A DNA stretch of 64,000 bases, taken from positions 4,623,001 through 4,687,000 of the forward strand of contig OY718807.1 in assembly GCA_963070105.1 (NCBI GenBank), given 5' to 3'. How positions within the stretch are numbered: the stretch's first letter is position 1; every line of letters begins with the position of its first letter. Under the pieces are notes generated by a model. That model was not told the origin of the DNA, did no database searches, and saw only the letters and a program-made list of their open reading frames with translations. Position numbers and translations under genes: made by a program. Shown one piece after another: positions 935-57,574 of this stretch. The stretch is from Litomosoides sigmodontis. Its lineage: Eukaryota > Nematoda > Chromadorea > Rhabditida > Onchocercidae.

Positions 935-4158
<3,224 letters not shown>

Positions 4159-25037: not shown

Positions 25038-28032
25038 CTAGATATCATTATCCGGGGTATTTGATAAGTTAGCATCACAGTTAGGCGTATCAACATGATT
25101 TGGAGTAACACGTTCATTGCTAACATCTTTTTCATTACCAGCATCACCACTGTCATTATCATCATCGTCATCGTCATTGACATCATTACTGTAATGATGC
25201 TCCTCATCCTCTTCTTCAAACTCATGTGATATCACATTCCCTGTCAACGATGCGTCACCATTGCTCGTTGCAGCGGCTATCATAATCGCTTTTTTCTGGA
25301 GCTCATCTGCGACTTTTACCCAATTCACATTTTTCGTTCTTCGAGCCAAATAATGAACTTTACTGCGACGTTGATCACGAACTGCTTTTTTCAGAATATT
25401 CATAACACGCTTTTCCACTTTTGTATCAGCTTTGACGTCGTTTGCATTTAGTGTTTGTTTCAGATCTCTGTTTGGATAAGAAGATGTCAACAACCCAGCA
25501 ATATTGACACAATTATCCTCAATCTGCGAATCATCCGCCCCACTTCCTATGGATTCCACGTTTTCTTCAAAAGACAAATCCATACAATTTAGGTTTTCAT
25601 CTTTATCTGCTTCCACTTTCATGTTCCCTAGAAATGACTGAAAACTCGGCGGTAAACATCCAGCTATTGCTTGTAACCCATCTAATTCGTTTCGCTTAAT
25701 TTTAATTGGTGTATGTGAAACCGGTGATGAACGATTTGATGAAATATCTGTCTTTCTCTTGTTCTCGTCAATCTAAAAAGTTTAAAGAAAAAAAAATTGA
25801 AGAGCAACGTCAAAAGAGTATTATTTTCGTACGATTTCATCTGACGTATATAAACTTACCAGTTTCTACTGGAAATACCCCCACACCGTACTTCACCTCG
25901 TACAATTATAATTGCACAGTCACCAAAAGTAGTTATCACTGTGTCATTTTTAAAGTAAAAAGGCTAATATACTGCACTGAAATGAATGATGACAGTTTTA
26001 AAACAGCGACCAATGATTGAAATTCCAACTTTTTTCAAACGTGATGCTTTTGGCTTGTAGCAGTGAACAGGTATTCCTCCGGTATTTCGTTTCGATCCCA
26101 CTTCGTATTTTGTACCCTTAACATAATGGAATAAGACATAACCCGCATCTTCATATGTAGTTGTGACTTCATAACGCCTGCAATTCAATTTTTTTTTTGA
26201 ATAGCTTATACTTATCATCAAGTCTTGTGCTTAAACTACTGATAGTTGTTCCTCAAGATTCAGCTGCACTAGGTTAAATTTCTTTGCCTACAAATGATTA
26301 CTTACTTAATTTATAAAGATAAATGTGAAAAAGTACATGATTCGGCCATCCTCAAAATCGTCCCCATTCCCACTGAAAAAACGTGTTATGTACAAATTAT
26401 CGGGCAATAAACCACTATCATTGTTGTCGAATGAATAACCGTCTTGCCTTAAGTGCTCACGCATCTGTAATAAAATTCACGAGTACAGTTAAGCTGCAGG
26501 TTCAAAGCCAAAAAGCAAACTGATCTTGAATTCAGAAATACTACTGTATTATAAGAATGCACGCCACAACATAATAAAATAAAATATAATTATTCCTCTC
26601 CAACCTACGATAATTTATACCACCAATAATGCCAGAAAACGAGATTTTTAATATTATGAAAAATTAACCCGTAGCATATCAAGATCCAGTTCACCGTAGT
26701 CTTTACTATCATAGATTACTATTGTTCCTGGCTCTGGCAACATTAACGGTGCTTCGCGACACACAAACTGTGTTGTTGTTTTGGCTTTCGCTGTAGAACA
26801 AGATGGACAAATTGGTAACAGATAACGGCAATTTCATAGATCGATCACAAAACAAGAATGCTGAGGGACTCCTCTATGTTGTTATAAAAGTAAAACTCCT
26901 CTATATTGTGTGGATTTATTCCGCTGTAGTGCTCATGACAACCAGTTAAACTAGCATCAATATCCACAAAAGGTAAGTGATCAGGTTAAAATCACAAGAC
27001 AACCCAGATGTAAAATATAACGACTATCCACAGCTTCCTAATAACTTTTCTACAAGAATAAAATAAGTTAGCGGTACCGACACAGTGAATATTAAATACA
27101 CTTGGGAATATTTAAGGATTTACCGAGTAAGCGAGCATAATCAGCGAACGAAAGTAGGCTATACTGATCGCTGATATGTACTCGATCCTCACATTCCTGC
27201 ATACTTTCTAACAGCTTTCCAATTAACCGATGGATTATTTCGTATTTTTTCTCATCGACCAAGGAAGAATACGGAGCATAAACATCGGATATTAAACGAC
27301 TCGGAGCCGCAAATACTTGAGGGATCGAAACCACTGCACTTTCCATCGCTCCTGCATTGTTTGCTGAAAGAAACAAAATTACCACTATGAATGAGACACT
27401 AACACGTTAACTGCAAATGCGTGACAAAACGAATTACATCTCTCTCTCTCTCAGTGCTGACTCCTCCTAACTCGATAAATGATGCCCACCTTGTGACTTT
27501 TATTTCATTACTTAATTAAGCAACCACAAGAATAAATGCACAAAGTTTACATATTTTTTTCCCGACAAGCTGACTGCCACACCAAACATTTAAGTGCCTA
27601 CTGCCATTAGCAATTCTGCTGTTCAGACGTTGCTACTGTTAAAAAGTTGGATAAGGAAAAGCCGTAAAAAGACTGCTTACGTTCATCTTGCGGAGCTAGC
27701 AAACCATTCTCACATTTCAAGGCTTCATCAGGATGCTTGTTACGCAAGTGTTCCCACATTCCTTTAGTCGATGATTGAGCATCTAAACGCAATTCTTTCC
27801 GCATGCAGCTCATCAGGCGACATTTAACGATTCTTTCCGTATCGGCTCGACTATAGCCGTCCGATTCGTAGAGGTCGAAATAACGCCAAACCACACTTTT
27901 CTTCGGAAAATATGGCATGGAAAGACGCAACCAAGTACCACTAGTACTGAGAATTGCCGGTGCTATCTCATCCGAGCACATCGCAACGTTCGAGTTCGGA
28001 TTTTCCGATGATGATGACGGTCCTTCGTCCAT
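25038..28032 (-). CDS. BED-type zinc-finger protein of unknown function
   Basis: Six exons: 27681-28032, 27124-27363, 26669-26790, 26337-26464, about 26010-26177 (low end uncertain) and 25038-25772. All other junctions keep phase. After a Ser-rich start (MDEGPSSSSENPN) comes a BED-like finger at residues about 45-105: aromatic lead SVVWRYFDL, a Cys pair C-x4-C (KCRLMSC) and a His pair H-x4-H (WEHLRNKH). Exon 2 is helical (KYEIIHRLIGKLLESMQE). Exons 3-5 form a compact, possibly globular unit (FVCREAPLMLPEPGTIVIYD; RYEVTTTYEDAGYVLFHYVK) that I cannot assign. The last exon has basic patches (VRDQRRSKVHYLARRTKNV) and a long Asp/Glu/Asn-rich acidic run before the stop. BED fingers bind DNA in chromatin-boundary proteins and in domesticated hAT transposases. 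No transposase catalytic region is visible. Confidence 0.75.
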
Positions 28033-28334
28033 CGTTTCCTTAAAACGAAAGAGTAAAAAGTGCGGTAGAAAAATGGTGTAATTCACTGATCATTTCGTAA
28101 GTCTAGTAGTAGGCGGTAGAAGAGAGAAAGTCTTAGAGGGAACTGAGCTTGCGTTAAGCAAACGAAAGTTTGCAGACACTGTGATAATGAGAGCTCATGG
28201 ATTTGTAAGAGGTCGGAAATGCTTTGAAAATACCGCTGAGAAATGAGTTGACACCTGCACAGAAGGGACTCTGCGGAAAGGTGTGAAAGGCAATGGCTGA
28301 GTGGCGGGAGGATAGCGGTACCGATGGATGGGAT

Positions 28335-31516: not shown

Positions 31517-35491
<3,975 letters not shown>

Positions 35492-36461: not shown

Positions 36462-37059
36462 CTAATCAACACATTGCCAATTGTTGTGTGTTCCGTGCTC
36501 ATTCCAACAGGTTGCATAATTCTCACTTACTGTCCATTGTCCATCCACAACGAACAGAAATTCATATCGCCCCGGCGGTATATCAACCCAAACGCCAAAT
36601 TTTTCACTATCGTTCTCCAACTGCTGGCATAGTAAAAAGCATTCCCAACTGACAAAACTTGCCTAAATATGAAATTTAGAGAAAATATCGATAAATATAT
36701 GTAACAGTGAGATGAACTGAATTTTTGCAATAAAAATTTTAAAATGCTTCTTACAGATGGACAATTTCATTTGAAACATACGCTTAATAATACAATTTTA
36801 GCTGCTGGCGCTCTAATTTCAAACCATATTCGTCGATAATCTTTCAAATCATCCGGTGAATTATTATTCCTAAATTTAAAAATTTTTGAAATACACTGAA
36901 ATAGAGTGGAGAAGGAAAAATAGGAAAGGAGGAGAAAGTGTAGCCTACCACATAGCTAAGCGCCACTTGTATCTATCACCGGTGGGTTGCTTTTTAATCA
37001 GAAAAGCACCATCCAAAACACTTTTTGTTGTGTCCCGAAAATAACACATTCGATCAAGT
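36462..37059 (-). other. Exons encoding the CBM48/AMPK1-type glycogen-binding domain
   Basis: Three in-phase exons give RYKWRLAMW, then YRRIWFEIRAPAAKIVLLSA, SFVSWECFLLC, and FGVWVDIPPGRYEFLFVVDG followed by QWTVSENYATCWNEHGTHNN before the stop. The order (strand with aromatic Trp, W/F-rich loop, 'v.l.lppG.yeykFvVDG.W', then a short post-domain Asn pair) is that of AMPK beta carbohydrate-binding modules. The VDGQW core is nearly invariant in that family. Carbohydrate binding is inferred. The residues corresponding to the canonical Asn-Trp 'ndW' loop are only partly kept (SFVSWEC). Confidence 0.75.
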
Positions 37060-40000
37060 CTGTAAAGCAACTTAGAAATGTTGCAAAAAAATGAAATTTA
37101 ATTTTCTTCATACATCAAATTGATCCGATCGAAAATCGCTGCTATTTTCAACCACTGAAATTGCATAGAATTCGGAGAGAAATGAGATGCAATTTAGTCC
37201 TCTCCCATTATCATAACAAATGAATTCTAACTCGTAGATTTTTTGATTTGCCTGATCCAACAGCCACTCCTTATGCGCCATGCCAGCTTCCAATTCACCA
37301 ATTCTAAATTAAACATTGCTTAAAATCTTCGCCATCACAGATTTTATCATTGAATTCCATCAGCTTCTCAATCTCTGACTATCTGATCAATCAATTATGG
37401 ATAATGAAGTTCACTAGAAATAGTTTACTATTGATAAGTGACCAATCAGGCTAAATTACGCTATTGCACTCTAACGATAAGTAAATTTTACTTCCATTTT
37501 GCATCATTCCAATATTGCGTCACTTCGCCTAGCCGCCATTCCACCTTACTCTTCTCGTCTCTCAACGTATTCTCTGCTTGCTTCATTTCGTCAATTTTTG
37601 ACCAATCAATGCCGCCATTTTCAGCGTTCTAAAAATTAGCAAAAAGCTTTTTCAAACGTTCAAGGAAAGCAAAAAGAGGGAAAAAGATCAACAAATTGTC
37701 GGAAATCAAAGCAAAATATAAAATGAAAAAAATTGATTTTAATAAGCGACAAATTTATCAGAACGTTGGCTATCACTACCGATAAACAATTGAAATTATT
37801 GAAAATAACCACTTACCTTTTTCCGCTCCTCCCCTAATTCTTTCTCCAAACGTGCATTTTCATTACGTAACCACGAGCACTGATCATATAAATCGTGCAA
37901 TTCACGCTCCTGATTTGCAACACGTTCTTTGGCGAGCCATACTTCCTCACCTGTTCTACGTTGTTCATTTTCAAGCCATTTTATTTTTTCGTGTGATTCT
38001 AGCAGGTCATTTTCCGCCCGTCTCGCCTAAAAATTCCACTACGCAATGATCAGGAAATTAAGTGCCTTATTAGTTAAACACATGTGATTTTAAACTTTTT
38101 TTGAAATTTATTTTCAAGCACAGTAAAATGGGACGGTTATTTTGTAGGTTTCATTTACCATTCACTTTTATTATGTGACATTTCTGTCATTGTGTGCAAA
38201 CAATATAATCGAATGCAGTTCATTTTATTTGTGAATTTGATTAGTTAGTTTAAAATTTAGTTAAATAATTCAAACGTATAAAATGCGTTCGAAGTGTAAT
38301 GTTTAATTAATAATGCTTTCAACAAGGCAGAAAACCTTTTTTTTGCTAATTTAAAGCAAATTTTACACTTACCTTTTCCTCCAACTCATACTTTTTACGA
38401 TTTAAAATAATCAATTCTGAGGATAATTCGTGATATTCATCTGACATCGTCGGGTCATCGATCCCATGCGATTTTAAAAGCAAAAAATTCAATCACTTTT
38501 GATAATATTACAAAATAATGAATAAGCTAGTTTTAACTGATAAAAACGATGTGCAAAATGATAGGTTGAAATGAAAATATGAATTTGGAGGAGCCTGAAA
38601 ATTTTACTTCCCTAATGACAGCTTATCAGAGCAACTTCTTACAGTCACAGTCATAATCCAAACAAATATTTTCCTCGAACTAATTCCGCCATTTTTTCTC
38701 TTCCGTTTCAAATATGTGTTTTTCTTTTGTTTATTAAATCATAAAAAAAAATGAAATAGTAAAAAGAACACACGGGTAACAGCACTGGTTAGCGACACGT
38801 CACGTTGTTTATTTGTTAGCGTTTCCACGTGCTCCTCAAATGAGTCATTTTTATAGAATAACTTTCATAATTCATGCAATTTTTCAAATACGAAATGCAT
38901 CAAGAAGAGCGATAAATGTGTAATTGAACTATTAAGCATTGCTTTTCCCGATATGTCTAAGTAACTCTCCAATTTCCGCCATTTTTGTTTCCTTTTATAA
39001 ATTTATCAAAAATAATATAAATTGATGTAAAATAATATAAAAAATAAAATAATATAAAAATAAAATGATATAATAAAATAAATTCAGATTATCGACAGTA
39101 TTATTTATTTTTTCTCAACTCGTATCTCTTTTTTTAGTATTTTTAGGCTATTTCAATTCCTCATCCTGAAATTCCATGCACTCTTTCTCGTACAAAAGTT
39201 TCTCCCGCAATGCGACTGGTAATTTCGACGAAAAATGTTGGAATGAACGATTTTTGATGCAAAATTGCAGGAAATAATGTTAATGCTTACGTTACTAAGC
39301 TTTACAACATGAAGAAAGCTTTGTGGAGGAAATTAAAAAAAAAATTAAATACCTCATTTGACATCATTTCTTTTTCCAATTCGAAATTAACAGCTGCTTC
39401 TTCCATTTTAGCTATTCTAAATTGAGTGAAAAATTGAAGGTATTTCTAATAATTGAATGTCTCACATCTTCTAAAGCATTAAAATTTATTTTTCATAGGT
39501 TGATGTTATTTTTTTGAATGCAATTTTACAATTAACCAAATGAACTAATAAGTACTTATCATGGAGTTGTGAAATTTTTGCATTTTTTTCATCAATTTCA
39601 TTAGCCAGCCTGTCCAGTTCAACCTTATATGTCTTCTCTCTCTGTCGGGCATCGTTTAATTCTGCTTCGAGAATACTTATTCTGAAATTCCACTGAAATT
39701 ATAAAACACTTTATAATACTCATTTTGGACAGATCAATTTATAAAGAAGCCTTAAGTTTGAATGCCTATGATAATTGTTGCAAAATTCACCGAGAGAAAT
39801 CATTGCCTCAACTGAGTAAGTCCAAAAGCTCACGAATGATGGATTTATTCCAGCACAAAATGATGACCGTAAAATATGCAAATGGAACAAACGCCTTACT
39901 TAGTGTTAGCATCTGTAAGCCATTGCCTATGCTCTCCGAGATTCCACTCTTTCTCGCTTGTTATCTTATTCAAATCATCAATTATTCGATTCTTTTCATT

Positions 40001-43000
40001 GATCACATTTCTTAGATCTTCGATAACATTATGCAAATTTCTGCAAATATTGCCTCTCGGAAAACCCGCATTGGAGTTTTTATTTTTAATATTTCACATT
40101 TAATTACAAAGGGTTTGGTTATAACTGCATAGCTCCTCTTCTGTAACGCTTTGTAAGCTTCTTCGCCTCACTTACTGCTAACGTAGCCTCACTCGTAGCA
40201 CATGGCTTTTGATATGTGTGGCCACTGCCATGCAGCCTTTGTTCAAAGTTATCGTCTTTCAGTCATAAAAGATTTATGTAAAATTTTAATAAATTTACAA
40301 AACTTACACAATCTCTTGCATCTTTTCAGCAATCTCAGTTGTTAAATGTTGCAATAAATTCTCCCTCTCACACAATCGAACCATTAATTCCGTCGCGTTT
40401 TGTCCCTTCATTAAATATTAATTACAGTATATTTCTGAATGCCAATAAGTCTCACTTAAATTAATTGTTTTAAATTAATCGCTTTTAACGAATAAATGAA
40501 CCAGAACGTTGACATAATATGAATTTCAACACCTAAGAAATGGACACCAAAGAGTGCGGTTCGTTTAACAGGCTTACTGTAATATGTAAACCCACTAGAA
40601 CTGTAAATAAAAATCAGCATAGAAATAATTGAATGTAAACGAATTGAAATATATTTACATATTTCCTTGAAGAAAAAGCAAAATATTCCCGAGCGATAAC
40701 AATAAGCCTATCGCTTCTTTTCAAGTAGGAACTAATCCAAAGCGAAACTTTTTAGCGCTTGAAGAAGTGTTTTGAAATGTTTGAACTGGTAAGGGGACAT
40801 ATTAACATGTGATAATTCAATTTCGTAAACTCTTCTCACTAATTAATTTTATTAAATTAATTACCTCATTGCTTGCAAAAGATGGAGCAGTTTGGCATTG
40901 ATGCTTCAAGTTATCAATTTGTTGCTCTAATGAATTGCTTTCCACTGCAATTGCGTTCTTTTCTTGAGTGATCGCATCAATTATCCGTTCCTTCTGCTCC
41001 AGCAACGCCGACATCTCTTCGTTCCTGAAATGTCTTTCCTAGACGTTCACGTCTCTCTCGGATCTCTCGTAACGAGTGGTTCAAGTCTCGGTGCTCGAAC
41101 AATGATAACATTATGCGTGACTGAGGAAGCAAAATGACACTGAAGATGGGAATGATAAAAGATACTTTCGTGTATTGCAGGAATGCCGACTGCTTACTGC
41201 ACCAAGCTTTTCAGTCAGCTTTTCATTCTTCATTAATTTAACGAACGTGTCGTTGTAGAAAAATGAAGCCAAACTTAACAACCAATTTAGTCTCTTCCTT
41301 AAATTACTCCAAAAAGTTCATTTAATTTTTATTCGATATGCTTAATGCTTTGATTAAACTAGCACTATCCCACATTTAAGTTCATCACAATAATCGTTAA
41401 ATAATTTTTTCTGATTCATCAACTATCAATAATTTAAACCGTCCAACATTTGTCAGTAACAGGAAAGTAATGCAATATTTCAGGTTTTTACTTAGGTATT
41501 ACTGCTATCTAGCAAGCAGAAACCTGAGGACCTCTTATTAAGTAAACAGTAGGTAAATGAATAATTGATAGTAAGGAAGATGTGAGAGCGTGAAAAGGAG
41601 AAGGAGGAAGGGATGCAGAGAAAAGCAGAATCATTTAAGGATTAGTAAAAGCAGGAAGATATCCACCCATCGTCCCATTTCTCTTATTAAATACCGGAAG
41701 AAATCAGAAATCAGTCAGCGCCGCGTGTCCTTTCTCTCCGACACATTACGTCAACGGTGATGTTCCGTATGACGTCATCATTCATGAAAAATGATGTCAC
41801 TTACGTTCACACAGGTTGCATCATTTTGCATAACAACACAATCTGAACAGATCAATTACAACTCGCTCAGCTGGAAAGAAATCGTTTCAAATTTGAAAAT
41901 AATTAATTGCAGGATGGATGCACTTTCCTTTGGAAGAACGCATATGAAATCAAACGGGGAAAACTTCAATTTCACTAAATGCTAAATGACTTAATATAAA
42001 TGGTAGTAGAGTCGGTAAATTTAATTAAAATATCTCTGATATAAAGTTATTCAGACATTAAATTTCACAACTTCGCAAATTAAATTAATACATCAAAAAA
42101 TATTACAATGTGAAAGGTTTTTTTTTTAAAAAAAAAGAAAAATGATGAAAAATTTTCTTTTTGAAATTGTAATTTTATGTAATGAATTACAGTTTGAATT
42201 CGAAACATCGCATAACCGACGAACGATCTATTAGCTTTATAGCATTCCATGTACGATTCACATTTATGCATTAGATATATGAAATGAAACATTTTTTTAA
42301 AACTAATTTACCAGCCTGATGTTCGGAACGATTACTGGGTACTATTAGAGGTCACTATAAATGCTAATGCAATATCAACGAGCAATACACACGTACCGTA
42401 ATAAGTCGATGAATGAATTATTCGATAACATTTGAATTTGAATTATTCTCTCATATGATTTAGTGTAAATTGATCAAACAAATTATGCCGTATTGTTACA
42501 TTCTTGTAGATCATTTTAATTAAAGTATTTTAATCAGTTCTTTAAAGGAATGAGAAAAGAAATTTATTGAACGGAAAATAAGTGACTCAATATTTTGGCT
42601 GAGAGACGCAGTAGGGAAGTGACTTGCCCGTTGCTAACACGTTTAGAGGACGTCAACAGAAAACAAGTACCACGCTTATGACCAGTCAAGCGCAACCTTA
42701 ACTAAAAGAGGCTTTTTTGCAGGGGAAACGCTTAATGGTATTTGTTTGATTTGTACGTAAATGGTCACTTGGCAAAATTGAGTTTACACAATGTCCGCAA
42801 CAACAAGAAATTCTTTCTTGTTGGATCGATCAAACTAAAATAAGCAAATATTAAAAAACTTAGAGCAATTATGGACCAATGATTACTGGACTTTGAATTA
42901 TCCGTTAGCGATTTTAGGACATTCCTATTTTGCTGAAAGAAAAAGATAGGATGAAAATTAGAGGACGAAGAATGAATTCCATCTCTAAATTCTCCATTGA

Positions 43001-46000
43001 TATTTTGTGCTTAAATTTGAACTTAAATTAGTGAAAAAAAAAAACTAAATTTGAAGCAATCAAGAAAGAGGAGAAACAAGAAAGCGCAGTAAAAAATTAA
43101 CAAGAAATTACAATTTTATGAACATTTCATATAACAAGTAAAGTAAAGTTGAAAAGATTAATTTCCTTCAATAAAGTCTAATTTAAAGCATTAACAACAA
43201 GCTTATTGCCACATAGACACTATGTTAATTTTTAAAATATTTTTTTTGAGTAATTAATGAGAGCATTGTTACCTAATAATGGCTTCCTTCAGGTTTCTTT
43301 CCAATTCACACTTCAATCCTACCAAATTTTCAACTTCAGCATTTCTATCACTCAATTGTTGCCGTATGTTCTCAACTTCTTGATGAAAGTTGCTACAAAA
43401 GGAATCAAAATTTAATTAATCGTTTTAATTTCATTTTACAGTCTTTATGTTAACGCATTTTAGAAAACTTTTTTATAAATCTTACTATTGGTTTCCATTC
43501 CTCTTAATTTCTTAAAAACATTGGAAAACAAAACCATTACAGTAATGTAACTCTTATTGATTAACAAATGCGCTTTTGCTATTTGCTGAAGGAACTTAAA
43601 ATTAAGTTGAAATTAGTTAGCAAAATTAATGATTGGATCAAAAGAGCTAGCTACTTGTGGACCTTTACAGTTAAGAATTTAGCATACATGAATTGTTCTG
43701 ATCGCAAAGATTGTGAGCGTGAAATATTCTCGGCTTCTTCTAAGGTTTCTGCAGTAATTGCTTTCCTGCAAAATTGCAATTTGAAATGAAAATTAAGTGA
43801 GCGAAGAGTGCGACGGTTAATTAAGGAAATTGATCGTCAAATGAAGGAACAGTTGACGGTCTCTTATTATCAATCAGCTCCGAGCACATACGGTACTTCC
43901 ACTTATCCATCCAAATATTTTCAGAAATAAAAAAAAACAAATCTTTTGCTCAATTTCTACTAAAGAAATATTTTGAATAAAAATAAAATTAGAAACTTTT
44001 AAAATTTGCTTGCAGTAAAGGAGAAGAAACTTTACATTTCGGTAACTTCAAATTGCTCTTCCACCGTATTTTCCGAAATTTCCTTTTCTAATTCAAGAAT
44101 TCTAAAAATTAATTCATCGATCACAGTATGTTGTTAGATTTTAGGATTTAGAAAATTCGCTGTGTAATGCGTGAATTTACGTGCGTCACACAACTCACAG
44201 GTGCTATCTTTTTTATTTGGTTCAAAAGAACAATTCAAACGTCATCATTTGCTTCACGGAAGTTCACGTATTCATCCAATATTTGGATTCATGAAAATTC
44301 ACGCATCTTTAGCTCATCAAAAATGTTGTTGCGAACATTTGCTATATACATTCTATCAGTAATTGAAATTTTCGAGAGAAAAATCTGAAATTAAAAGCGC
44401 AGAAAACAGATTCAAATTTAATCTAAAAGGGCGTCAATGTTGACCAGCAGATGCGGAATTGTAGCAAAAGTTAACTATTTAAAATTAAACGAACTTATTG
44501 TAGGAATCAGTGATGTATTCATTTCGTTCTTCTAATAACTTTTCAGCTGTGCTGCGTTCCGCCATAAGCGTATCGATGATTTTCTGATAATTCAATTCTT
44601 TGCATAAATTTTCCAACAAGCAGTTTATTGACCTGCCAAATGATAAGAAGTACTGTGGAGTTGAAATGAATATAATTGAATAGTGCTGAAATATTCCTCT
44701 CCCGAATGATTCGTCGAATCACTTCGGCGGAAACTTCTTACAATCCTATTTCACAAAAGTTCCAAAATTCTTTGAATCAAAGAAAGAAGACGCCGGGAAG
44801 TGTTCACTACTGCCCAGTACTTCTCATTCACTAAAAAAAGCTTCTGGAAGTGGTATTGCTTATCGTTCTGTTAATTAATTATCGGCAAATTTAACTTAAC
44901 AGTACCTGAGTTCTTCATCAATATTTTCAGAATGAATCAATGCTAAAACATGTTTACTTTTTTCCCAAAATTTCCAACAGGTTTCCTGAAATCAGTGCTA
45001 ATTTAAACTTTGTTAATTACATAAATGGATAAAAATGGTCTAATTTTTTACCTCTCCTCCCTCACCCGCTGCATTCATTAACAAATTTTGAATTTCATCT
45101 TGCAAACGCTTCACGTCTTCCTCTAATTGTGCATTTCTAGAAGAAATTTAGGAAATAATAATTTGCACAGATTTTAGTCAGTCATTGCTGCTACACTTTT
45201 GAATTGAGAATTACTGATTGAAGCTAAATTACCTTGTCAGGTAATGTCGGTATTATAAAATGTGCTGAACTGTTTCAGTGTGAAATGTCCAGTGTTTTAT
45301 TGTAATTATTTCATTTAACAATTGCATGCATTAACTATGATATTACCCGACAAGGCAATTTAGCATCAACCTTCTCCATTAATAATATTCTATTTAAATT
45401 AAATACAACTTATAATGCTTCATTTAAATATTTCACTGATTTACGTGGCTGAGATTAGATGACTGTCCAATTTAAAGCTTTTACTTGATGAAGAAAAAAT
45501 TTCCATGCAAGAGGAAGCAAAACAAACTTTTCATTTAATGCTTCATTTTCCACACGTAAAATTTCAAGTGCTCTTTTACCTGCTTCTTTCACGTTTGCTA
45601 ATTCTTCCTCTAAAGCAGTTATGCTGAAAAAACGATCGATTATGCTTCGATTGAGAAAAAAATTAAGTTCGTAAATTGAGGAAAAAGAATTGTGAAATAA
45701 TTTTCAAAAAACAAAATGATGAAAAGTAATAATTAGCATAGGTGAGGGTCACTCGTGGAAGGTTATTTCTCAAAGAGATGGAAAAGATCAAACGATGCAT
45801 TTACCGGTCGTTAGCACTGTGAAGCCATCCACGATGCTCTTCAAGTTGCCACTCCTTGTCATTTCTCTCTTTCAGCAAATTTTCATTTGCCGCCTTACTT
45901 TGATGCAATTCGTTGTTTAAATTTTCGATTACTTTCCATAATTCTCTTGAATAATTTTGAGTGAGTTAAAAACGATTTCAATAAAATTTCGGCATTTACA

Positions 46001-49000
46001 AAGGATTAAACATCACTTCAAAATATTTGTAAGCTGTTTGACAATGTCTGCTTGAAATATTTACAGAATCAAATTTAACACGCAAATTTTTTACTATCAA
46101 ACGAATTAATGTTTACTTGGAATTGACAAATTCTGAAGCTTCCATTTGTATTTTTGTGAGGTATTCTTGAATGCTTGCAAGAAGAGAACTTAATTGCAAG
46201 TATTTTGCAGAAAGCTAAAATGAAATTAATTTTTAAAGTACTCGTAGGCCTAATTAGAAATTAAATTTTCATCCAAATTTCTCTGCAAAAAATAATGACA
46301 ACAGGCTAATTAAAAATTATTCAAAAAAGGTAAGCCTTTTTGAATTCTTCGTCCAAATTTCCCGATCCTTCAGTTTCTCGCAAAATGTGCACCGTCGTTT
46401 TTGTGTCTTTCGATAGAGTTCCCAACAGAACTTCTGTTTTTGTCAAAATTTCTTTTAATTTCTTATTTCTAAAAAATGAAAACAACTTAAATATTATCAC
46501 AAAATAATTAATTTTAATTAATTTGGACAAAAATGTTGTAGAATTCTTTGTTAAAAACGAAAATTTAAGTGTAATACAACTATATTTAAGAAGCAAATAA
46601 GTTTTTTTTTTTTAAAAAAAAAAAAAATTTAGCAGATATTTCAGAAACATTACGAACGTGTGATGTGTTACGGTAAAAAGGAAAAGAATCGCTGAGCAAC
46701 AGCGTAATAAGATGATTGCAGTTGCAGTGTAACGAATGTAAAATGAGGAGGAGAAAGAGTGTAAATGGATTAATTGGCGACTGAATCCATGTGGCACGAC
46801 GTTACGTGAAAAGAAAGAAAAACGAACTTTTCACGCAACATAAACGTTTCATTCCTTAAATTCGAAACTATATCAGTATGTTTCACTTTCACACGTGTCA
46901 ATTCTTCGTCGAGCAGAGAGATTCTACAATGAAGCATAAAAAGTGCGTCATTTCCTTTGTACGATTTAAAGGAACAAATGAACTGAGAGATGGCGAAGGC
47001 GCAAAGTGGCAGATTCAAAATTTATTCTTAAATGACAGTTTGCAATAATATTTCCGTTGATTTTGAATGAGTTAATTTGCATCTATCTGATTTCACTTGT
47101 TAAATTGCAAGGATAAAATATACGTTTTCAAACGAAACTTTTCCTTTTGGCTGTTATTTGCAGTATTTGCAGCTAAGTTTTAAATGTTAGCACTGACGCT
47201 TAAACAGTAAGCACACCGCTCATTTGCATCCTTCAAACGCTGTCGTTCCTCAACAAGAAACCACTCAACGTCAGATCGCTTCTTCTCAGTGAGCACGAGA
47301 TTGGCATCCTTCTCATCCAAATCTTTTCGCAATTTTGCCATTTCCATTTCACGTTCACTTGAATTGTTAAATGTGAATTAGAAATCGTGGGCGAAGTGAA
47401 AATTCAACTGCCACTACATTTCCTATTTCATTAAATTTAATTGAAATGTCTGGGAATAAAATGTTTGGATACGATCACAGCAACAACAACATACTACTAC
47501 TTGTAAGTAAAAAAAAATGCAATCGGAAAATTTCGAAATCTTTGACTTCAGTATGTCCGTGAGTTTTTCAAGCGACTGTGAAATTTTTTCACTTGTTTGA
47601 ATTTTCGACTGCATTTGAAGCAATTGCAAGTTAACTCTAGCGTATTTGGCACTTACTTAATGTCAGCATTTCGATTTCCAATTTCTTGCCTTAATTGCTC
47701 GATGTAATCGTTTCTCTTGCACAATTGGTCCTCCAATTCTCGTAATCTAGTTAAAATAATCTATATTAAATTACTTAATTTCAAACTGGAATTATTAAGG
47801 AAGCCTGCCTGAAAAGTTTGTTTTAGAAAATGTCATTCGAAAATAAGAAAATTTAGGTAGGAAAACGCAAGAGAAATTAAGACATATTATATTTGTAATT
47901 AATGCTTTCCCTGATAGGTCATTTTCAGTGAAATTAGCCTTTCTTTGAGCGAAAGAAAAAGTCACACGTACGATTTGATGTAATCACTAAAATATGTAAA
48001 AATTTAAATTAAAATAAAAATACACAAATACGAACGATAAAGGAACGAACAGTTCAATAAGAGGAGCATTGGCGAGATATCAACATTTTGTAACGAAGAA
48101 GATAAACAACGAGAATATTTAAATTCCACTGCAACCGTACCTATCAGTCCTATCAGCTAACTTCTTATCTTATCACAACTGCCACACTAGAAGGTTCCTT
48201 TACAACTTTGTCTTGCAAATTGTAAAAACATTTTGCAGGAACTCGCAATGGAAGTGGGAATTGCAGTGTAAGAGCCCACTGATAGTGTTGTCACATCAAT
48301 GCATCGATGATAAGTCCGCAATTTTACGCTCTCTGACGACGTACGAGTGAGTTCTGAGCCGTAAGTATATGAATTATGTGAGAATTAATAGCTATAGCGA
48401 GGGATATGCTAGCGAAGAACCGAATGAATTCAATTCAATTCAATTAAATTGGAAGGAAATAGAATTCAGTTGGGAGTGAGGCGCTGCTACCTGTCGTTAG
48501 ATTCACGGAGCCATTGGCGATGTTCGCCCAGAATCCACTCGGCATCATTCCATTGCTTTGTTAGTGTTTTAATGCATTCATTTTTGCCGTTTAATTCATT
48601 CTGCAGCGAAACGACCGCAGAGCTAAGCTCACTGAAGGCAAAGGAAGAAAGCACATTGATCATCTGTGTATAACTTTAATTGGAAATTATATTCGAAATC
48701 ACCTAACACAATCTATTCCCAGTCTTTTGCATATTTTCAATGATTTGCAAAATTTTTTTTTTCACACAACCGATGCAAAAAAAGGGCAAAAATGTTATTG
48801 GAAATGAAAATATTAGAATAATTTACTTGAATTTGTGTTGGCTTGGTGCTTCAGCGAGTGCCTTCTCGGTGGTCTGAAGTTTTTCACGTAAACTTGCATG
48901 TTCCTCCTGTAGAAAAAGGATGAGTAGAATTGAAGTCAGTGGTCATTGAGAAGGAGTCATCAAATATTTTACTATTTTAATAGCAATTGAAATTTTCAAA

Positions 49001-52000
49001 ATTCTCAGCCCACTGACTTAGACCGTATTTTCAAGCTTACATCGAAAAAGAATGAAAATGGGAAGGCTAATTGGAAGATTGGAATAAAATGAAAAACGTT
49101 CCTCCTTACGCTTCTTCAACTCTTCAATAAAGCTACTCTTTTCAATCAGAGCAGTTTGCAGCTCGTTGATCCTGAAAATTTCATTCGATTTTGCATTTCT
49201 CTACTCGAATAATTGCTTTCTTTTCGAAATGACTTTTTTAATTTCATTTTTTCATCATTGTAAGATTCTTAATTAAATTTTTAATTATCAAATCAAAATG
49301 AATCAGCTAATTAAATTGATGGCAGAATGTGGCGAAAAAAGAATTGAAGAGCTCTTTCGTATAATCACAGTTATCAGTGCTAAATGTTTGAACCGTTCCA
49401 GTAATGAAGCAAATAAATTTATCAAATATTAGGTCGGTGAAATTCCACTCTTTTAATATTTAAATTGCTAAAATCATCGATTACTTGTGTGTGCTTTGAA
49501 TTCAGCAAAAATTGCGTCAATTAACTCAAAAATTTGATAATAAATCAATGAATTCGAGTAATTTGGGCTAAAATTCATGAATGCTGTCTTTTTCGGTGGT
49601 AAGCGATAATGAACCTGTTATCGGCATCCTTTAGTAACCGCTGCTTTTCGTCAAAATTCCATTCGGCATCCTTCTTCTGTTTCGTTATGCAATTGATTTG
49701 CTCGTTCTTATCGTCGACCTCTTTCTGCAAGCCTTCGATAGCTTCCATTGACTCGCTGAATTGCAACTGATAAGCAAACAAAAGATAAAAGTTAAGACGA
49801 AGGGGATTGAATTTAGAAAAAAGAACGTCAAATACCTCAAAAAATTTCACTATCTTGCGCAGCAACAAACAGAATATTCTAGAATTAACTAAATTTAAAT
49901 CCTTTTAAATGATCTTAAATTGCGATGAAGTGCGAAACAGTTTGAAAAGTGTGATAATTTTTCCGCGAATACCTAACATTGCCGCGTAGTGTTTCAATCT
50001 CTCGTCGTAAGCTAGCATTTTCATCACCAATTACTTGAAGTTTACTTTCAAGTTCATCAATTCTAAAATATTGATTAAAGTTACTGCGACATAAATTTGA
50101 AGGTAAATACTTGAAATTTGTTCCTTCTTCTTCCTTCCATCATCATCTCCTTACATATCACTGAAAATGGCTGCTTGAAAATGTTTTGAATTTCAAACTT
50201 TCAACTATCCTATACAAAGATATGAAATTCAATGATTGAAGAGCTAGAATTGAAAGTAAATTAAAAAAATTCTAGCTCATTGTTAGCATCTGCAAGCCAT
50301 TGACGATGTTCACCCAAACTCCATTCCGTGTCATTCTTCATTTGCTCGTTTTTTACGGCATTCCGATTTGCTGCGTCTAATTCACGCAACAATTCCTCTA
50401 TTTTCCATCTGTGTGAATTAAAATTTTAATTTTAATTCAATGACTTAAATCAAATTTCAGTTACAGTTTGTTCAAAATCAATCGTGTTTGATTTAAAGAA
50501 ATAATATCACAATTTCATAAATTCTTTGAAGTAGCAAGAAGTAAGCAATTGATTTCGAAGTGTTTAGTAAAATAAGATGCGACTTAATACTAACTTAAGT
50601 TCGTTCTGCTTGCCATTAAAGTCTTCTTCCAGTTGCACAATCTGTTGATCGTTCCGCAGCATTTCCTTCTTCAATTCTTCCACGTCGTGCTTGAAAATTT
50701 ATTTTTAGGAAATTTTTCCTCATTTGAGTTTCTATTGAATAAATAAAATTATTGAAATGGTACTTCCAGTTGTTGAATTTCATGAAGTTCCATTACATCC
50801 TTTGCAGTTGCAACACGTTGTGTGGCCTTTTCCATTCCTTTCATTCTATAGAAACATACAAATTAATTTACAATCCCAAATTAAACGGAAATGATTGATT
50901 GGTCGATTGTTGAAATCGACGCTTCAACATTCTTTCGCCATCATTTCCGTACTTTCTTAATCAATTTGATTCAATAATTTATTCTCATTTCAAGTAGACT
51001 TAATTATGTGATTTCAATTAATTTACATTAAACGGACTATTAATTTCATTGCAACTGACCGCTCCTTTAGATTTTGCAACCACTGCTTGTGTTCCGCAAT
51101 CGTCCAACTAGCGCAATTTCTCTGTTCAATTGAATCATTGAAATGATCGTTGTCGAAGTCAGAAATATTCTCAGCCAAATCTTTCACTGATCTTTTAAGT
51201 ACATTACAAGTGAATCTTTTCAAGAGGAATGAACTCCTTCATATTTGACCAATTTTAAGAGGGAAAAATTCAACAGACTAATTAAATTTGAATTATCAAG
51301 TTGAAAAGGAATGAATAGGGTTTTTTTTGCAATGTTAATTACGGAAAATCTTTTCGCAGTGGTTAAATTCTTCCTTTGCTAAACTTTGCCGAAATTAAAA
51401 TTATCACAAATTTTCACTAATTTCAGTAGTTATCATATCTAGAAATACTTTAAAAAACTTTTCCCCAGAGATAATTCTTATTTTATAAATTCGGTTAAAT
51501 TTAAAGAAAAAAACAAATTTCCACTAACTTATACTTGAAGTCCTCGCTGTTTAATTCAGCTTCCATCAACGGCTGCTGCTTTCCGTTCAAATGAAGTTCC
51601 AATTCGTCGAGCTTTGCGTGTAACTGTCAATTGGAAAGAAATACATTAACTTTAATTAATGGTGTAAAATTAATGAAATTAACTAATTGCATAAAGTAAA
51701 GAGAAAAGTTTCGGATCGTACAAAATTTTACCTGTCGGAATGCACCGTTTCGTATTTCCTTTAAATCGTCTAATTCTTTAATTATAACTGCAATCAAGCG
51801 ATCTTGTTCACTTTCCTTATCCTGCATATCTCTCATCCTTAAATTTCGATTTTAACAATAATTCGAATATTTCATTGGGTTAATGTGCCTTCACATAATT
51901 TCCATTTAGAAATTCAATTATTAAAATATGAATTAGGCTTGAATAAGCTGTTCATTGCACATTAAAAAAATAACAAAAGAATAAACAGCATTAAAGCTTC

Positions 52001-55000
52001 TAAATCTTAGATTTAATTAATCAATGAAATTAATTATGTCAGTAACTACTTTTATTTGAATAATACACATTTAATGCATTCAGCTGAGCTGAAAGTACAT
52101 TTGACCGATTGTGAGAAATTTTGTTAATAAAAGAATTACACTTCGCCATTGCTTGCAGTCAAACGAACGCTTAAATTAAATTGATCAACTAGCTCGGAGG
52201 TTGCAGAACTTCGAGTGGCTTGTCCCAAATGTAAATTTTGCTAGCTTTACTATGAATTAGGAATAGAAAATGAGACCTATTTTCGGCATCATTTAGCCGA
52301 GCCTCGCATTTGCTGATGGCAACTTTCGTTTCGTCGTTCTCCTTCTTCAACTCCTCACACTCACGTCTTTTTTCCTCCAACATTTGCTGCATCTCTTCCA
52401 TTTCGCTTAATTTGAAAATAATTATCGAATTTGATAAAATTACCTGTCGCAGGTTGAGATGCGACTAAATTCGCCCAATCTGCTAGTAGTGTGAAGTGCT
52501 AAAAGTTCCGTTCGAGAACGCTCTTACGCGTTTCAACCGTCAAATCTGCTTGAATAACGTACTTATTACAATCGCTGGTTGTGAGCGCAGTTCCAGCCTG
52601 TTTGAGCATTTCTTCGAATTCACAAGCTTTTCGCCATCCTTCTAATTTCTCATTTTCCAAAACGTCAATTCTGAACTCACATTTTAAAGCATCTAAATTT
52701 CAACCAAAGCTTGCGGCACATTAAAACAACTTCAGAGTTATGCACTTTTCCCTCATCTCCTTCTCTCACTGCTGGAACTTTCACTCACTTTAAATCATCA
52801 CCAACCTAAATTTATTAATTTTAAAAAGTAGCCATCACCTCGCGTTAGCGTCTTGTAGCCAACGTTGATGTTCGCCAAGGTACCATTGTGCATCATTTTT
52901 GGCCTTTTCTAGCTGTCCGATATAATCATTCTTCCCATCAATTTCTTTTCGTAAATCGTTAATTACAGAATTCAAATTACTAAAACATTTACTAATCAAT
53001 TTACTTTCAATTCGAATTTCCTATTTCATTTTGATGTGAATCTTTAAAACTCACTCATTGCTTTGATTAGAGTCAATAAGACGTTGTTCTAAGTCACTCA
53101 GTCTATCTGTTACGTCGGCAATCTCGTAATCCTTCTCTTTGCACACATTTTCCAGATGATTTGCCCTAAATAGATTTTGCAAAAAATTTAAAAAATTTCT
53201 GAATACAATGATAAAGTTACAACACAGAAGTGACCACAAGGCAACGCGCAAAAAAGCAATGTTTTATTTGCAAAAACACATGCAAAGTTCATAGTATCTG
53301 AGAGCTGTCATATTTGAGTTGATAATTTTTATTTTTAAAAAGAAGCGAATTCTTCGCCTGTAACTACTGGACAAAATAGCGGTCAACCTTTTGTTTGTGT
53401 CCTTTAACCATTGCTTGTATTCGCTAAGGCTCCGCTCCAAATCTTTGATCTGTTTGCTCATTTCATCAATTTCACAATTTTTCTCAGCCACTCCCCCCTC
53501 ACTTGACCACTGCTCTAGACTATCGTATTCCTCAAAAATAATTAATTTTTCACCAAATCAACTCATTATTGCTTTTTATAACTTCGAGCTTCAAGATTTC
53601 GGTTTAAAATTGCTAAATTTTCAATTTAAGCAACATTTTTGGATCTCAAAAGTTTTCGAAAGAAATTGTTCAACATTTCAAATTGTTTTTATAATTAAAA
53701 ACAAAAAGCGAATTTTAGTACGATTTCAGGCAGGTGACCAAGTGAAAGATTTTCGAATTCTGTGTTTAATTCCGCGTTGAGGTTTGCCAATAATTGTGCC
53801 TTATCAGTTACTTCAGCCGACATTATCTCCAAATCCTTAACCCTAAAATTATTCAAAATCTGTTGTAACTATTTTTAATTAAATTTAATATTGCACTTGC
53901 CTTGTCAACTAATTAATTAGGTCATAAATGTGAACTGCTTAATTTCTTTGTACCCATTTAAATCTGTCCTCTTTGAAATTCTAAATTAAGGTCAAAAGAA
54001 TAAAAAAAAGGTTTACCTTCAGTAGCATTAAAAACACTCCTATGCTAAATTCCAGTATAATTAATTCTTTTTCTCCCTCTTTCGATCGTCTAATGCTCAC
54101 CTCTCTTAAGTGTCTTTGCACTTTACTAAAGCATTTAAATTTATTAACATTCTTAAATTTTTTTTATAAATGCTCAAAAAGATAACGAACTCATCCGTTT
54201 GACCCTTCAATTTCTGGGGTACCGCCTTTACTTCCGTTCTTTTCTCCTGAAATGAAATTGTGGACTTTTCCGGCACGAACTGTTCTATAATTTTGGATTA
54301 TTTAAATTATTTGTAGTGGATAATAATTCTTTCAATTTCCGTCACAAATAAAATAAAAAATGTAACGGAATTAAAAAAAGGATATTTTAATTTCAAGAAA
54401 TAACGTACATGACGTCCTGAGTGATCACTGTACGTTGGTGGATGCATTTGTAAATTACTGGAATTAATTTCAAATTTACAACTGTTAGCTAAGCATATTC
54501 AGTTTCCTCATCGCTGTCACTCTATCACTTTCCTTTCAATTAAAATTTCATGCCTTTTGTGGAAATGAGCTTTTCCTCAAATGAAGAAATTGCATTGTTC
54601 GGAATTTCTTTCTTTCAAACCACCGGTCAAGCACAAATTGAAATTGCCTCCATTTTCTGGCCAATTCAATCACTTTTACTCAAATTTAATTTGCAATGGT
54701 TTGAAACGTAAAATTAATAAAAATAATCGCTAATACTAACCTTTGCTTCAGGATATCACCTTGCGCCTGAAGCTTCTGGCTTTCAGTTGATGTTTTTGAG
54801 CAGTCTCCGATGATAAGCTGTATTGTTCAAGGCAAATTAGGAACGTATTTTATATTAAATATATATTCAATTCTAGGACTTTGTTAAAACTAATACTTCT
54901 GCTCTAAAATGTAATTAAAATTAAAAAATTTCAGTAAATTACGAAAACTAACCGATCCATTGCTTCGTTCCTCTTCATCATTTTGAACGTCACATTCACC

Positions 55001-57574
55001 TTCATGAATAATTTGCGCATCACTCGACAGCAATCTACCACCACCATACCTCTGACGTAATGACCTGGCTGACGCATCCTCAAACATAAACGCATAACTG
55101 GACCTTTGAACTTCATTGGGAAAGGTTTGTTTAATAAAGAGAGTAGTCAGAGCATCGATGAAAGTTATGCAGCAAAGATTACAGGTAGCGTAAAGAATGC
55201 ATTAACTTGAAATCGAAATTATTTTCAATTATTACAGAAAGTCTTGGGAGACAGGTTCTTCTCAGATATTTTCTTCAATTCGATAAAAGCAGGTAGAAAG
55301 ATGAAAAATTTAAGAGCAATAAATGTTTTTAAAATTTCACCTTCCTATGTGAATGAGGTACGATCCATTGATCAGCTGGAAAATTCAACATTACCATTTA
55401 AATTAATATATTCCAGAAATCTTATAAAAATAACAAGGCAAGGATTCAATGCAATGTACCTATCGGACTTACATTTGCCTAGCATGCGTTGTATCAAATG
55501 AACAGTTTTTTCGAATCGTTCTGTAGCACTACAGTACTGTCCAGCACTGATACTGTTGGAATGTTGGCATCCATGTGCTGTAAATTTTAAGAATTTAAGT
55601 TCTTTTCCTATTAAATTTGAAAAGTGTTGCTTATACTGAAACAACGCAAATAATTTTTTTGTTGCCTTTTTTTTGAAAAAATTTCATCAAAATTTGAGCA
55701 GTAAAGATTGTTAGAAAACAATATTTTGGTAAATGTTCAATACGATGTTTGCAAAAAGAACGAAAAAGTTAAAAAAATCAGAATTTCATATTACATATTT
55801 TCATGATATTGCAGTTATTTCTATATAATTCACTATTACTATTAGAGAAAAATGATAATTAGTTACTCAGTTAATTAAGTACTGAGCTTTAGTTTTACAT
55901 TTGTTCAAGTTTGTTTAACATTAATTTCAAAATTTAATTCGTTCTGTTAACTTCAAGTAATATCAATTGTATTTCAATGCAATAACTACTTCCATTTCTA
56001 AAAAATAAAAATAATTGAATAAATATTTAACCTCCCTTCATTTGAAATTTACACAGTGATCGTTACTCGATTTATTCAATTTAAATCTTTTTCACTTCCA
56101 TATTTCCTTTTGGAAACTAAATTAATTAATCTAATTATCTTCAGTGTGATCATAAATCGAATTTACCATAAAAATTTGCATTTATAAAATTTGTAATTTC
56201 GCCACTATTAAAGATTAGCAATGGTAGTGCAGTGCTTTGTTTGCCTACCTGTGAGTCATGACAATTTATTTCAAAACTTTTTATTTACATTTTTTAGTTT
56301 AATATCAGTTCCTTCACAGCCTGTCTTTTGCCTGATCGGTCTCAGACAGATGAAAAACGATTTTGTCTGTTGAATTTTCCTAATAATTAATGGTTCATCG
56401 CTCCTTCAAAGATGTGAGCCTACACTTTTTTTGGCTGTAAAACAAAAAAAACTACAATAAATTTCAAAAAAAGAAGAAATGCATAGACAATTGCCAGTTG
56501 AACTGCAAATACTTCTCTGTCAGATGGCGAATAACGCTGGGTAATTAAATAGAAAGAAATGAAAAGAAGCAGCGAAACAAAAACCGAGCTGATTAATTTG
56601 AGCGTATTTTAATTTTAAATGAAATTTGATAATTGATTAAGTAATTAATTCCAGAAATGATAATGCTAGGAAGTGAATTTTATGCAGTTGCAGTACTAAA
56701 ACTTTAATCATTTTTATTCTGAAATTCATTTAAACTGAATTTATTTTGGAAATAATTTGAAAACAATTAATGATTTCTAACTTCACTGATGAACTTGTAT
56801 TTTGAATTATAAATGATAATATAAATTGATTATCATCGTGTACTATTCAAATATGCAAAGCGAAGCAAACCAAGTTCAACAAATATTGGCTTGGAATTCC
56901 AGCCTTGTGGACCTTTTGATATGCAGCCAGTTGCGCCATTATACCTGTAATTTAGACTTCAAAGATATCATTTTAATTTAAATTGAAATTTCTCTGTTTA
57001 TTCATTGTGAACAGATGTGAATCATGCATCTCCAAAATTTTCATTGTGATTTTTCTCTTCATTTTTTCGATAAACATAAAAGCTTTAATGGAAGCGAGGA
57101 AGTGAGGAAACGGAAGAGGGGGAGAGAGATAAAAAAGGAAAAAAGAAAGATGAGACAGGACTTTAGAGCCTTTTTGCAATTTTCCTCTTTGTAATAAAGG
57201 CCATGTGCACCAGGTATGACAGATTGTACGGCTGACAAAAGCACTGAATCATCTTCCTGTAACGGCACGTCCACCGGTTCCAATTCAATACGAGCCCATC
57301 CTAAACAACATTCACGTCAATCCCACCGCAATTAGTGTCATTAATTATAATCATTAATTTATTTCTTTTTTTTGAGTAGTGAACGTGCAGACTTTTAGCA
57401 AACGTGCGGATAGACAAATGTAGTACACGTAGGGAATAACGACGACCGTTCTACACTGCTCACTTATCGTTTCAATTAATTAAACATTTGTTTGAAATAT
57501 TTTTAATGCAGGTGAGTTGAAAGGAATCTACCTGGTGGTGGTGATGTGGAATCTATGACTGGAGGAACATCCAT
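36462..57574 (-). CDS. Giant coiled-coil protein with TDP-43-like N-terminal domain and C-terminal AMPK-type glycogen-binding domain
   Basis: About 50 exons, mostly 60-200 nt, read without strand change over 21 kb. Exon 1 (57532-57574) starts MDVPPVIDSTSPPP. Exons 2-3 carry a domain alignable to the TDP-43 N terminus (see separate entry). From about 55.6 to 37.1 kb the exons encode charged heptad-like helices, for example VINDLRKEIDGKNDYIGQLE and EELKKENDETKVAISKCEAR. At least ten exons end in a module of consensus EWxLxEHRQWLxDAN. The last exons (36949-37059, 36782-36869, 36462-36662) encode a CBM48/AMPK-beta-like domain and the stop. A 2.2 kb intron (about 41.03-43.27 kb) is bridged in matching phase (AIIR to NEEMSALLEQ), which supports one gene. 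Adding visible exons suggests roughly 1,800-2,000 residues. Not all junctions were resolved. Filarial 'major antigen'-type coiled-coil proteins and C. elegans LFI-1 are candidates to compare, but I cannot confirm either. Confidence 0.8.
41030..43270 (-). other. Largest intron of the coiled-coil gene
   Basis: Flanking exons (about 43272-43395 and 40865-41028) are in matching phase. The intron contains a perfect TGACGTCA palindrome at 41770-41777 in a GC-richer patch (about 41715-41810) with further ACGT cores. No intron-encoded gene seen. Confidence 0.5.
45216..45370. mobile_element. Foldback/MITE-like element with inverted repeats
   Basis: The left arm at about 45216-45247 (core GCTAAATTACCTTGTCAGG) is the reverse complement, with a few mismatches, of the right arm at about 45339-45370 (its complement reads GCTAAATTGCCTTGTCGGG). 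The roughly 90-base interior has no coding capacity. It lies in an intron of the coiled-coil gene. Size, terminal inverted repeats and lack of an ORF fit a non-autonomous DNA element. No clear target-site duplication is visible. Confidence 0.6.
54409..54427 (-). other. Candidate 19-nt micro-exon of the coiled-coil gene
   Basis: Bounded by a CGTACAG acceptor and a GTACGT donor. It adds S-D-H-S-G-R-H and exactly bridges the phase-2 end of exon 54741-54817 to the phase-0 start of exon 54191-54246. Without it those two neighbours would be out of phase. Confidence 0.45.
56871..57574 (-). other. Exons encoding a TDP-43-like N-terminal domain
   Basis: Exons 57532-57574, 57162-57300 and 56871-56944 join in phase. 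ELEPVDVPLQEDDSVLLSAV followed by QSVIPGAHGLYYK aligns with the human TDP-43 N terminus (E-P-I-E-I-P ... T-V-L-L-S-T-V ... F-P-G-A-C-G-L-R-Y). From that Tyr to the next Gly-Trp the spacing is 22 residues in both, with a shared Cys (EENC). The domain ends GWNSKPIFVEL. In TDP-43 this ubiquitin/DIX-like fold drives head-to-tail oligomerisation. No RRM follows here, so this is not TDP-43 itself. Confidence 0.7.

Follow-up and report, generated by a model that had tools for sequence, protein, structure and literature searches.

A gene on the minus strand of the Litomosoides sigmodontis genome probably encodes a single protein in which a TDP-43-type N-terminal domain (NTD), a long coiled-coil rod and an AMPK-beta-type carbohydrate-binding module (CBM) follow one another. 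The window, the whole 64,000-nucleotide stretch analysed (C4:4623001-4687000), belongs to a genome of 65.9 Mb in 7 contigs. The predicted gene (36462..57574) comprises 46 exons encoding 1687 aa. Its frame remains open along the whole chain from 57574 to 36462, every internal border is flanked by AG/GT and the model is colinear with P0007, a predicted Dirofilaria immitis protein of 2309 aa (6 member sequences). In P0007 the two terminal domains are arranged likewise (65.3 and 45.4 bits), which argues for one protein. The initial annotation placed the start codon at 57574 and the stop codon at 36462, and both agree with our analysis. The same annotation described three parts on one strand, in compatible phase and in a continuous exon run. 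The parts are indeed real and lie on the minus strand in an open 46-exon chain, but the link between rod and C-terminal part is weakly supported, and the annotated L. sigmodontis protein P0006 ends before it, at a TAG at 39148.

Exon choice was guided by P0006 as far as 39353. The P0006-guided model of 39 exons (57574-39148) is identical to that protein at 1369 of 1377 aligned positions, with 43 extra P0006 residues left out. The first exon (57532..57574, ATG at 57574, MDVPPVIDSTSPPP) is identical to P0006 at 14/14 residues, and splicing by hand gave in-phase junctions at 57532|57300, 57162|56944 and 56871|55577. Splice matrices and the heptad scale were our own approximations, and the training set for the codon scores was 653 codons picked by eye. 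Elsewhere in the window, three minus-strand ORFs at 1475-3658 matched HSP70 (117, 179 and 159 bits), which places an Hsp70 gene close to the start of the window. A BED zinc finger ORF was found on the minus strand at 27607-28089 (27.4 bits, cut-off 20.6), and a CAA repeat of 41 copies, open in several frames, at 34547-34670.

The TDP-43_N domain (56871..57300) is encoded by exons 57300-57162 and 56944-56871. The ORF containing the first of these matched Pfam TDP-43_N (PF18694) at 52.5 bits (cut-off 27.1, E 4.6e-14) and the second completes the domain in phase. Over whole codons both exons are identical to P0006 (45/45 and 24/24), which itself scored 65.2 bits against the cut-off of 27.1. We modelled the NTD of P0002, the orthologue from Acanthocheilonema viteae, using 9 aligned sequences (pLDDT 68.8). 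The best 8 PDB matches to this model were all TDP-43 NTDs, with a best TMt of 0.73 and E <0.001 in 3. The modelled orthologue indicates that the domain has the TDP-43 NTD fold, and its identification as TDP-43-like in the initial annotation was right.

Polymer contacts reported for the TDP-43 NTD include E14, E17 and E21 against R52 and R55, plus Q34 (PMC5491494). At these positions the window protein keeps E14, whilst E17 is replaced by Asp, E21 by Gln (Glu in D. immitis) and Q34 by Val. R52 and R55 both align with Lys in MAFFT and in two gapped alignments to PDB sequences, and with Leu and Asn respectively in an ungapped alignment (5x4f). We counted E14, the Asp and the two Lys in favour of the scaffold reading given below, and the Leu and Asn of the ungapped alignment together with the changes at Q34 and E21 against it. 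A phosphomimic at S48 is reported to break TDP-43 assembly (PMC5830921), and in the gapped alignments the worm loop around this position lacks 2-3 residues. A Glu at the S48 position is present in one gapped alignment and absent in MAFFT, and we make no claim for it. Judged from its residues, head-to-tail assembly of the worm NTD is plausible.

No RRM was found at E 0.01 in any of five long homologues (P0010 without the NTD part). The whole genome contains 6 TDP-43_N matches. At two of these loci (L003 and L004) a Pfam RRM_1 match lies downstream, and at a third (L002) the sequence looks RRM-like by eye, its ORF having no Pfam match at 0.01. At C3:5999906 (L001/L010) the domain sits in a single exon, scores 73.9 bits and is followed, with no RRM noticed by eye, by a segment resembling the window's post-NTD exon and then by helical-looking ORFs. 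That post-NTD exon (55473..55577, HGCQHSNS...ERFEKTVHLIQRMLGK) is identical to D. immitis at 20/34 residues, and its similarity to the segment behind the domain of the L001 paralogue was judged by eye. In the 9.9 kb following the domain at C6:2697852 (L005/L014), inspection of the ORFs by eye likewise revealed no RRM.

Between the NTD and 39353 lies a putative coiled-coil rod of many small exons (39353..53842), identified from its heptad pattern and the exon model. By our own uncalibrated heptad heuristic and threshold, 43% of residues in the first spliced model scored above threshold, compared to 0-2% in 5 shuffles. The corresponding values were 52% for P0007 and 48% for P0009, with 0-3% in five shuffles of each. 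Six exons of the final model measure exactly 141 nt (47 codons). A W..GE motif, a pattern of our own, occurs 12 times in D. immitis and 11 times in O. ochengi, with 5 copies in Cercopithifilaria and 6 in P0006, and its commonest spacing in D. immitis is 77 residues (11 heptads). One repeat exon (50270..50408) is identical to D. immitis 701-745 at 28/46 residues, lacks the GT expected at its end and has no colinear match in P0006; it is apparently decaying. Gain and loss of such repeat exons would explain the different rod lengths of the homologues.

Comparison with C. elegans LFI-1 and the filarial 'major antigen' had been suggested, and it fails. The O. lupi major antigen is reported as an LFI-1 orthologue with a Rootletin domain (PMC7875354; PMC5137501). 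In this genome the Rootletin matches above cut-off lie on C3 and C6, away from the window, and none of the five long homologues has a Rootletin match at E 0.01. Identity with LFI-1/OVT1 was rejected on these grounds.

The critical point for a single protein is the join between the rod and the C-terminal part. The exon ending at 39353 ends in phase 0, and for the conserved exon beyond the gap two acceptors lie close to its start, at 38440 and 38416, each requiring an upstream end phase of 1. A candidate linking exon of 61 nt (38774..38834, EHVETLTNKQRDVSLTSAVT; splice scores -0.4 and 0.5) runs from phase 0 to 1 and joins 39353 to 38440 in frame. Together with the next residue it is identical, ungapped, to the D. 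immitis linker at 8/21 positions and lies at the colinear place. This exon, with the phase needed on both sides, favours one protein. Of 5000 shuffled versions of the exon, 7 reached its own score, and of 400 control stretches, each 700 nt long, 7 reached the best linker score (30) in the 700 nt between the TAG and the Met of the C-part. Some open bridge is nevertheless expected by chance, since 38834-38774 is one of 33 single exons that could close the gap, leaving 32 single alternatives in addition to 607 exon pairs. Starting the exon at 38861 instead gives a longer variant whose score is one point higher but whose acceptor is -5.3. The 31-nt link of the first joined models (38673-38643) was rejected as unconserved. 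At the linker, D. immitis is longer by about 25 residues. A segment at 39151-39210 (LREKLLYEKECMEFQDEELK, LREKLL...) is identical to D. immitis at 12/20 residues, but its phase does not fit that of its neighbours and it has a TAG at its end.

The same region also accommodates two adjacent same-strand genes, fused in the D. immitis prediction. Gene A would then span 57574-39148 and encode 1377 aa with TDP-43_N and rod, and gene B, at about 38447-36462, would encode 297 aa with a short coiled coil and the CBM. The P0006 TAG, a nearby AATAAA and the lack of a CBM in most long homologues make this arrangement a real, though less likely, possibility. P0006 ends in MMSNEDEELK, which equals the window sequence up to the TAG at 39148, and AATAAA follows 38 nt on (39104..39109); among the region's 1490 stop triplets, 131 (8.8%) have this hexamer within 60 nt. 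The Met at 38447 aligns with a D. immitis Met, and the stretch from the preceding in-frame stop to this Met contains no AG. Against separate genes stand the in-phase linking exon with its similarity to D. immitis, a TAG-to-ATG gap that at 700 nt is shorter than six introns of the model, and two out-of-frame ATGs directly upstream of the Met, with no leader acceptor seen by eye.

Both forms could also arise from alternative ends, a short TDP-43_N/rod protein ending in DEELK and a long one with the CBM. This possibility overlaps the other two and we regard it as unlikely. The last exon used in the P0006 annotation (DEELK-TAG, 39148..39165, acceptor score 3.9) and the linking exon 38834-38774 each continue exon 39353 in phase, but the short end is known from a single annotation.

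Conservation changes across the join. In the rod blocks, identity to D. immitis stands at 52-55% and 65-66%, and it rises to 82% in the C-part. The blocks include 22 of the 29 exon rows in 53842-43273, seven having been dropped because the start was wrong, the donor missing or the best match not colinear, and omit row 39210-39151; with all rows included, rod identity is 540/1036 (52%) and 139/213 (65%). The C-part looks in this respect as if it were separate, and we counted the step against one protein and in favour of two genes, although rod exons 40405 and 40040, just upstream of it, are identical at 25/32 and 41/46 residues.

Homologues bear on both readings. Searches were confined to proteins of similar length with 5-residue words in common, and one of them scored only the 7984 candidates sharing most words. 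The search with the C-terminus, confined to proteins of 1270-4040 aa, found P0007 alone among 535 candidates, which counts against one protein. Four of the five long homologues (P0006, P0008, P0009 and P0010) have no CBM, though some may be cut short. Nine of the ten homologues are named to species, and these nine come from filarial or related spirurid nematodes. Among the literature matches listed we found no paper on a nematode TDP-43_N coiled-coil protein.

The conserved C-part (36462..38447) is identical to D. immitis 2009-2309 at 245 of 297 aligned residues, and can also be read as a free-standing frame of 297 aa from the ATG at 38447. It ends in a CBM48-like AMPK1_CBM domain (36462..36869) encoded by exons 36869-36782 and 36662-36462. 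Pfam AMPK1_CBM (PF16561) matched the last exon at 45.3 bits (E 1e-11) and the two exons joined at 44.6 bits (cut-off 26.8 for both), confirming the assignment to the AMPK type made in the initial annotation. The sequence matched AMPK beta1 CBM structures 4yef (E 4.6e-6) and 1z0m (E 5.5e-6). Only the 66-residue last exon was used for structure prediction because the spliced domain is non-contiguous in the DNA; it gave a weak model, with a pLDDT of 57.2 from 2 sequences.

In AMPK beta1, W100G and K126Q are reported to abolish glycogen binding, K126Q as measured on the isolated domain, and W133L, S108E and G147R to weaken it (PMC6274970). By our own assignment of beta1 numbers to the alignment, the worm CBM keeps W100, W133, G147 and T148 and has Leu for K126 and Gln for S108. 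The glycogen-binding set W100/K126/W133 is thus incomplete. D. immitis has Leu at the K126 position as well, but an AMPK beta exon elsewhere in the L. sigmodontis genome keeps the Lys (EYKFFIDGKW). Given the loss of this lysine, a protein or some other ligand is no less likely a partner than glycogen. Glycogen binding by the worm CBM is doubtful, judged from these replacements. The proposal of the initial annotation, a scaffold that tethers glycogen, still has the retained W100, W133, G147 and T148 equivalents in its favour but is weakened by the loss of K126 and S108, and we consider it rather improbable.

If TDP-43_N, rod and CBM form one protein, as we think probable, the gene would encode a cytoplasmic scaffold of about 1690 residues. 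Its ubiquitin/DIX-like N-terminal domain may make head-to-tail contacts, as suggested by its family, and the rod, built from repeated exons, may dimerise as a coiled coil. The C-terminal AMPK-beta-type CBM sandwich would bind a partner. Linked heads and paired rods could then generate a network presenting many CBMs. In this scheme we infer the shared transcript of all exons, polymerisation, dimerisation, cell location and ligand.

The combination of TDP-43_N, rod and CBM looks like a new domain architecture. We tentatively propose a giant filarial scaffold devoid of RRMs, with a polymerising TDP-43-type head, a rod of repeated exons that varies in length between species and an AMPK-beta CBM re-tooled for a non-glycogen ligand, a combination not known to have been described for any of its parts. 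The TDP-43 NTD has been studied mainly within an ALS-linked RNA-binding protein. With a natural relative that sits on a rod and has no RRM, one could ask what the NTD does alone and which contact residues can change. If the join is real, the protein would also offer a test of whether a CBM48 can switch from glycogen to another partner. With 82% identity across two genera of filariae, the C-part stands out as a candidate for a conserved function that has yet to be characterised.

Several known systems resemble parts of this protein. With C. elegans LFI-1 and the filarial OVT1 'major antigen' it shares the character of a long coiled-coil protein of filariae, but these are rootletin-like and its five long homologues have no Rootletin match at E 0.01. 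Plant PROTEIN TARGETING TO STARCH also combines a coiled coil with a CBM48 and provides an analogy in how the protein might work; it is not known to carry a TDP-43_N domain. The AMPK beta glycogen-binding domain (AMPK1_CBM, CBM48) matches the worm CBM at E of about 5e-6 and shares both tryptophans, whereas the worm module has Leu at the K126 position and is C-terminal on a coiled-coil protein, with a separate AMPK beta-like locus in the same genome. TDP-43 (TARDBP) has an NTD of the same Pfam family and fold, and the worm protein mostly keeps its acidic face. The worm domain differs in that Q34 is replaced, the basic face and S48 loop depend on the alignment, and the NTD leads into a long rod.
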